Shown here in pieces: positions 13,266 through 14,303 of a stretch of DNA of 33,484 nt (the first letter of the stretch is position 1; every line of letters starts with the position of its first letter). Source of the DNA: Patescibacteria group bacterium (GTDB lineage: Bacteria; Patescibacteriota; Patescibacteriia; 2-12-FULL-60-25). A program made the position numbers and the translations under genes. Under the pieces are notes generated by a model. That model did not search any database and was not told where the DNA came from. It saw only the letters and a list, made by a program, of their open reading frames with translations. The stretch is taken from assembly GCA_018830085.1 (NCBI GenBank), contig JAHJSR010000024.1, forward strand, positions 1-33,484, read 5' to 3'.

Positions 13266-13658
13266 TTAAAAAGGCAGTTGTAAAAAAAACAAACCGGAAA
13301 AAATATTTTGCAATGCTAATAGTAAGGCTATAGGTGGAAGCGCGACCCAAGCCATGGCAAAAAGAAAATAGACGCAAGCTTCTGCGACCAATGCTATTCC
13401 CCTACCCAGGATTACAAAAAAACGCATTCCCACGCTAATTAAACGGCCAACTAAATCATACTGGCCATACATTGGCACAAAGAAATTTTTAAACCAGATC
13501 TTAAAAGCGTATTGCTTTGATCGATATTCTAGACCCTCGATACACCATTTAATAAATTTTTTTAAACCTTTGGTGTACCACCAAATAGGAAACCAAATAA
13601 TACTGCCAAATAAATCGACAAACACGAGCCGAATTAGTGCCTCGGAACGTTGCATCAT
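13266..13658 (-). CDS. Membrane protein, first gene of the ClpC-like operon
   Basis: ORF ends 3 nt before the ClpC-like start; ATG at 13658 or 13655 just downstream of TATAAT. Confidence 0.65.
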   Translation of the reverse strand: MMQRSEALIRLVFVDLFGSIIWFPIWWYTKGLKKFIKWCIEGLEYRSKQYAFKIWFKNFFVPMYGQYDLVGRLISVGMRFFVILGRGIALVAEACVYFLFAMAWVALPPIALLLALQNIFSGLFFLQLPF

Positions 13659-13664
13659 ATAAAT

Positions 13665-13673
13665 ATTATAGCA
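13665..13673 (-). promoter_or_regulatory. Extended -10 promoter of the 13266-10548-9435-8931 operon
   Basis: Minus strand TGCTATAAT; -10 at 13670-13665. Confidence 0.6.
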
Positions 13674-13705
13674 CAATTATGATTGGACTTCGAGTGAGTT
13701 ATTTT

Positions 13706-13737
13706 AAAAACAATAAAGGGCGCATAGTGATGCGCCC
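13706..13737 (-). terminator. Terminator of the candidate ncRNA
   Basis: Minus strand GGGCGCAT-cact-ATGCGCCC followed by TTTATTGTTTTT. Confidence 0.75.
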
Positions 13738-14213
13738 ACGCCAGTGGAGAGAGGTCCCCGGTAGTTCCAAGTGAAGGAACTGACCATACCTTCGTTACGG
13801 TGTCTTGATTTGGCCATTGGCTTGGCACAGCTTTGGCGGTTATAGATATTTGAGTACTTTGCCTGGCTGTGGTTGCCGTGATGCCATGTTACCTGAAGGA
13901 GCTGGGACCGGTTCGGGAGAGTACATTATGCCCGAGGGCGACCAATGGATAGGTCGCAAATTGTGCGGCTTAGTATGCCGCTGCACAAGGATGGCCGCCT
14001 CATGCTATAGCAGTGTCACGATCTTTCCCCGGAACTGGCTTCCAGAGTGCCATGATCGTCGTCCCGTTTATTAGGACTCGTACCCTCATCACCTATATCT
14101 TCACTCCTCTGTGTTTGGGGTCTGGTAAGTTGTTTTTGTTTTTGGCGTTGCCTACTGTCGCTGTCATTTGGTTGGTGCCATTTGGCGATATGTGGCCACA
14201 CAGAGGTGATGAG
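13706..14213 (-). ncRNA. Candidate structured non-coding RNA, about 500 nt, unidentified class
   Basis: No plausible CDS; numerous nested inverted repeats (see findings); TTGACA upstream; strong minus-strand terminator at the 3' end. Confidence 0.6.
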
Positions 14214-14263
14214 GTGATATATAAATGACATATTTTTCGTAATATGTCAAGGTATTTAGTGGG

Positions 14264-14303
14264 TATAAAAAAACTCCTCCAAAAACGCGCAGTCGGAGGA
14301 GTT
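14264..14303 (-). terminator. Terminator after ftsL-like gene
   Basis: Minus strand AACTCCTCC-14 nt-GGAGGAGTT followed by TTTTTTAT. Confidence 0.65.

Follow-up and report, generated by a model that had tools for sequence, protein, structure and literature searches.

The window, that is, the whole 33,484-nucleotide stretch of DNA analysed here, is contig C10 of a 1.23 Mb genome in 132 contigs, of the Patescibacteria type and from an uncultured bacterium (labelled G000). On its minus strand lie, in this order, mraZ, rsmH, an ftsL-like ORF, a gap, a small membrane-protein ORF and the genes for a ClpC-like AAA protein and a MraY-like glycosyltransferase; the ftsL-like and small ORFs, which match no Pfam family, owe their names to position and conservation. 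The gap is bordered by the end of the ftsL-like ORF (14404) and by the small membrane-protein ORF (13676); as the initial annotation had stated, it holds no credible coding sequence and is richer in GC than its surroundings, the GC fraction of the RNA described below being 0.52 versus 0.40 for the window, with local values of 0.45–0.57 and flanks near 0.30. The upstream mraZ–rsmH–ftsL operon is predicted to end at a terminator (14303–14272, minus strand) that is similar in the same-genus genomes G007 and G008. The next operon would start from an extended −10 promoter, TGCTATAAT (13673–13665), followed by an ATG (13658–13656; the whole element spans 13673–13656 on the minus strand). The same arrangement, with TGnTATAAT immediately 5′ of the ATG of the downstream operon, is found in G006 (Parcubacteria group bacterium ADurb.Bin192; L044, just upstream of position 1087), which suggests that the mRNA of the small membrane-protein gene is near-leaderless. 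In that case the TTG start listed at 13676 would lie too far upstream. In most of the loci compared, the small ORF (13266–13676) is conserved and precedes the ClpC-like gene.

Inside the gap, the minus strand carries a candidate gene for a structured non-coding RNA of about 505 nt (14214–13710), the ends of the transcript being placed from the sequence. Its putative promoter (14250–14222, minus strand) comprises TTGACA (14250–14245), a 17-nt spacer ending in TGT (TG at 14230–14229) and a weak −10 element, CATTTA (14227–14222). This block resembles TTGACAAGTTATAAAAAATATGTAAG in G006, and none of 1000 shuffles was as good over TTGACA and the spacer. The TTGACA reported initially is present, although the −10 hexamer proposed with it (TTTATA or CATTTA) is poor and the site at 14250–14245 is missing from the output of the promoter scan; the similarity of the block in G006 speaks for it more strongly than the hexamer does. 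An inverted repeat, TGACATA...TATGTCA (14250–14224), overlaps the putative promoter and is partly kept in G006. At the other end, the strong minus-strand terminator described earlier (13737–13718 plus a T tract) is indeed there: the predicted intrinsic terminator, GGGCGCATCACTATGCGCCC with its T tract, covers 13737–13706, and the G006 copy ends in GGACGCGACTCGCGTCC TGTTTTTTTT.

When 97 relatives were searched at the DNA level with the RNA of the window, short chance matches were all that appeared. Homologues were therefore sought by synteny: loci were anchored on the ClpC-like protein encoded downstream, and their flanks were compared. This gathering of ftsL-downstream regions from related genomes, which the initial annotation had proposed, yielded one homologue. 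It occupies the corresponding slot, with the same orientation, in the same-genus genome G006 (L044, about 2060–1445, minus strand), with 60.8% identity over 217 columns (E-values over the loci compared of 2e-4 with blastn and 2e-5 with nhmmer). The two copies align locally with a score of 35, whereas 500 dinucleotide shuffles gave 12.5 ± 1.3 and at most 19. The most conserved stretch extends from 14064 to 13786 (minus strand), and its first part (14064–13895) forms the core of model R1. Promoter-like block, fold and terminator are common to both copies. The G006 RNA also has matches of 25–45 nt in five other genomes. In one of these, G018, the rpoC antisense strand (L159:1501–1544) shares 85% identity with a segment of the G006 RNA (L044:1693–1737) over about 45 nt; this match, absent from the RNA of the window, is probably due to chance.

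Folding predictions favour a structured product. In the window, the minus strand folds better than 100 of 100 dinucleotide shuffles (z −2.8), versus z −0.9 for the plus strand; in G006, the z-score of the minus strand is −5.7, but the plus strand does equally well relative to shuffles, which counts against the reading preferred below. With RNAalifold, the full-length alignment of the two sequences has an energy below that of 60 of 60 column shuffles (z −5.2), and for the core only, five of 200 column shuffles were as low. The core model predicts 27 pairs, five of which are changed on both sides and none of which is broken between the two sequences. Likewise, among 33 hand-anchored pairs, 24 are unchanged, two changed on one side, seven changed on both sides and none broken, a two-sequence count that is descriptive because the anchored helices were chosen with both sequences in view.

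The predicted architecture (all on the minus strand) begins with a 5′ domain (14214–14084), in which CCTCATCACCT (14214–14204) can pair with 14094–14084 and CTGTGT (14203–14198) with 14114–14109. These pairings would enclose an A/C-rich linker; the minimum-energy fold prefers other pairs, and the alifold consensus pairs part of the domain in both species. Hairpin H1 (14058–14019) consists of an outer helix, CGATC/GATCG, an invariant ATGGCA bulge and an inner helix, CTCTGG/CCGGGG, with three pairs changed on both sides in G006. The alifold consensus then forms a multibranch helix (14005–13930), GC.TGAGG (14005–13998) with CCTCG.GC (13937–13930), for which a local hairpin, TCGGG (13935–13931) with CCCGA (13917–13913), is an alternative, both options being near-invariant. 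Hairpin H2 (13988–13961), made of GCGGC/GCCGC and TTGT/ACAA, is matched in G006 by a hairpin in the corresponding position, while hairpin H3 (13957–13938), the GCGACC/GGTCGC pairing listed initially, is retained there through paired changes, two pairs being changed on both sides. A helix between CCTTC (13899–13895) and GAAGG (13793–13789), spanning 13899–13789, has GAGGG in G006, and the 3′ hairpin AGTTCC/GGAACT (13781–13763) is replaced by a different hairpin at the same place. Other pairings of the initial annotation fared unevenly: for CACAGC/GCTGTG, AGTTCC/GGAACT and TTGTGC..GCACAA, G006 has hairpins at the same places but, as judged by eye, of different sequence; GGTCCC/GGGACC is partly kept; and the GGAGAGAG/CTTTCCCC extension of the long-range pair discussed below is not kept.

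That long-range pair connects GCCAGT (14039–14034), in the loop of H1, with ACTGGC (13745–13740), which lies 2 nt before the terminator stem in both species. In G006 it becomes GTCAGC/GCTGAC, in aligned loop columns and with the same 2-nt spacing to the terminator. By simple arithmetic, an exact complement would be expected by chance at this single position with a probability of about 1/4096, before allowing for the several pairs listed. Because the pair had been named beforehand, we regard it as the best single structural item, and by comparison of the two sequences it is probably a real pseudoknot. When the two copies were scanned without restriction for long-range 5- and 6-mers that had changed but were kept, the result was not above control. 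That scan did not single out this pair, since the sequence alignment is wrong towards the 3′ end, where MAFFT misplaces the 3′ strand of the pseudoknot. The case for the pseudoknot thus rests on its prior naming and on its exact spacing to the terminator.

The RNA has a narrow distribution. Model R1 matched two of the nine same-genus genomes, G000 and G006, also with laxer filters, and none of the other seven; it again found only these two among the 41 genomes of the family and 23 close genomes (laxer filters) and among 389 class and 389 phylum genomes, two non-exhaustive and partly overlapping samples in which distant members could be missed. A pattern scan of genome contigs retrieved G006 and six stretches that R1 does not support. 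In viral contigs, two patterns gave 3 and 18 stretches, in which R1 matched only briefly and weakly, in the immediate surroundings of the pattern; a third gave none and a fourth gave 75, none of them matched by R1; phages, plasmids and E. coli contain no match to the RNA. The RNA is absent next to ftsL in G007 and G008, and a 24-nt match at the terminator in G007 is unrelated. Across G001–G008, the slot (13676–14303 in the window) is variable: it holds the ncRNA in two species, G000 included, and otherwise other ORFs or spacer. G001 has a pentapeptide-repeat protein there, G002 and G003 have ORFs, G004 has a short spacer and G007 an unrelated small ORF.

Such a pattern raises the possibility that the RNA belongs to a mobile or satellite element, or is cargo of one, inserted at a variable slot, and that its role, be it in defence, packaging or maintenance, benefits that element and not the host. 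The patchy occurrence in two of nine same-genus genomes, the presence of other cargo in the slot and a GC content above that of the surroundings are consistent with this idea, as is the ClpC tree, in which G000 and G006 are not sisters, so that either several losses or a transfer into the same slot is needed. However, the gap in the window has no terminal repeats, neither patterns nor model connected the RNA to phages, plasmids or viral contigs, and the shared position in the two species is also compatible with vertical descent followed by losses. We consider a mobile origin unlikely, and note that it overlaps with the explanation preferred below, as it concerns the origin and the beneficiary of the RNA and not its reality.

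An alternative that we find still less probable is that the RNA acts in cis on the small membrane-protein/ClpC-like/MraY-like operon, as a long leader or attenuator whose fold would switch the terminator at 13737–13718 so that read-through expresses the operon. The RNA does lie directly upstream of the operon, in the same orientation, in both species, and a pseudoknot strand sits 2 nt from the terminator. But the operon has its own extended −10 promoter-like sequence at the ATG in both species, about 360 bases containing repeats separate RNA and operon in G006, the operon is retained in same-genus genomes that lack the RNA, and no clear competing anti-terminator was seen. Given the near-leaderless promoter of the downstream operon, the RNA looks like a separate transcript.

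A decayed protein gene, or a plain GC-rich spacer, is highly improbable. Open frames of 71–89 aa exist on both strands, and an antisense frame gives a weak tblastn match (E 1.7e-4), but a protein-coding reading was rejected: the match follows DNA identity, the G006 frame contains stops, and the indels between the two RNA copies, mostly non-multiples of three, break the frame. Moreover, the copies share no reading frame and match no Pfam family, and the changes at codon positions 1, 2 and 3 (0.46, 0.33 and 0.43) reveal no excess at the third. A conserved fold and terminator would also be unexpected under decay.

The comparison with known RNA families proposed initially, using Infernal and Rfam 15 and including RNase P RNA, tmRNA, SRP RNA and the large ornate RNAs, gave no match at the gathering score for the gap RNA or its G006 copy and, at E ≤ 10, chance-level matches only, none of them credible. 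The idea of a diverged housekeeping RNA, for which one may cite a length of about 500 nt, close to the 503 and 514 nt of the RNase P RNAs in this genome, is nearly refuted: neither copy matches RNase P RNA, tmRNA, SRP RNA or 6S RNA at E ≤ 10, seven same-genus genomes have no match to the gap RNA, and it is neither tmRNA nor RNase P RNA, as true copies of these lie elsewhere in the same genome above the cut-off (tmRNA on C30, RNase P RNA on C61 and C127), the gap RNA lacking an RF00023 match, tRNA-like ends and a tag frame on the one hand and an RF00010 match and the CR-I motif GAGGAAAGUCC on the other. The two RNase P RNA genes of G000 (C61:1447–1960, L009, 514 nt; C127:13311–13813, L010, 503 nt) have similar scores; their variable loops differ and their flanks are similar, and they may represent two strains binned together.

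Altogether, the best reading of the sequence data is a new family of large structured RNA that is accessory and patchily distributed. The initial proposal of a novel structured ncRNA of about 500 nt is largely upheld by the absence of an Rfam match and by a homologue that keeps promoter block, fold and terminator, with helices unbroken between the two sequences. That the ftsL terminator and the small membrane-protein/ClpC-like operon flank a stand-alone structured RNA gene appears quite probable from these features, and to the whole explanation, a stand-alone, structured, accessory and trans-acting RNA of about 505 nt, we assign a probability of roughly 0.75. It is also likely, if a little less so, that it represents an undescribed family of large, pseudoknotted, stand-alone Patescibacteria RNAs with a function of their own, as an RNA or RNA–protein particle or a ribozyme, encoded by an accessory gene in a variable slot of the cell-division cluster. 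Full-text literature searches returned no paper describing structured RNAs from this radiation, a negative that carries little weight. The product of the gene would be the fold and not a peptide. In the mode tentatively favoured, the RNA would fold into a rigid particle that the 3′ pseudoknot closes at the end of transcription, and it may serve as a scaffold together with proteins or further copies of the same RNA. There are few large structured bacterial RNAs to which no function has been assigned, and some of them proved to build unexpected particles (PMC12286853); the present gene offers a defined predicted transcript, core motifs and a named pseudoknot for direct in vitro testing, and the covariance model of the core is available for seeking more members.

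Among known large RNAs, bacterial RNase P RNA (RF00010) resembles the gap RNA in length but differs in that its model gives no match and the genome has its own copies. The Rfam 15 covariance models of OLE (Ornate Large Extremophilic), ROOL and GOLLD do not match the RNA of the window or its G006 copy at E ≤ 10, so that, by the tests available, it appears to belong to none of the three, from which it differs in having no Rfam match. OLE RNA, which forms homo-oligomers (PMC12286853), is likewise a large, stand-alone, highly structured bacterial RNA, although no protein-partner gene was identified for the gap RNA. GOLLD RNAs, many of which exceed 800 nt (PMC12286853), recall it by a conserved 3′ part and a more variable 5′ part, but no phage context was seen here. 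ROOL RNA (659 nt in one example; PMC12286853) is also an orphan RNA of similar size with extensive pairing and pseudoknots, and is non-essential in one strain; the gap RNA, in contrast, resides in a chromosomal cell-division cluster and not in a tRNA island or prophage. By analogy with OLE, ROOL and GOLLD, scaffolding or particle formation is tentatively put forward as the likeliest single mode of action, at clearly less than even odds.
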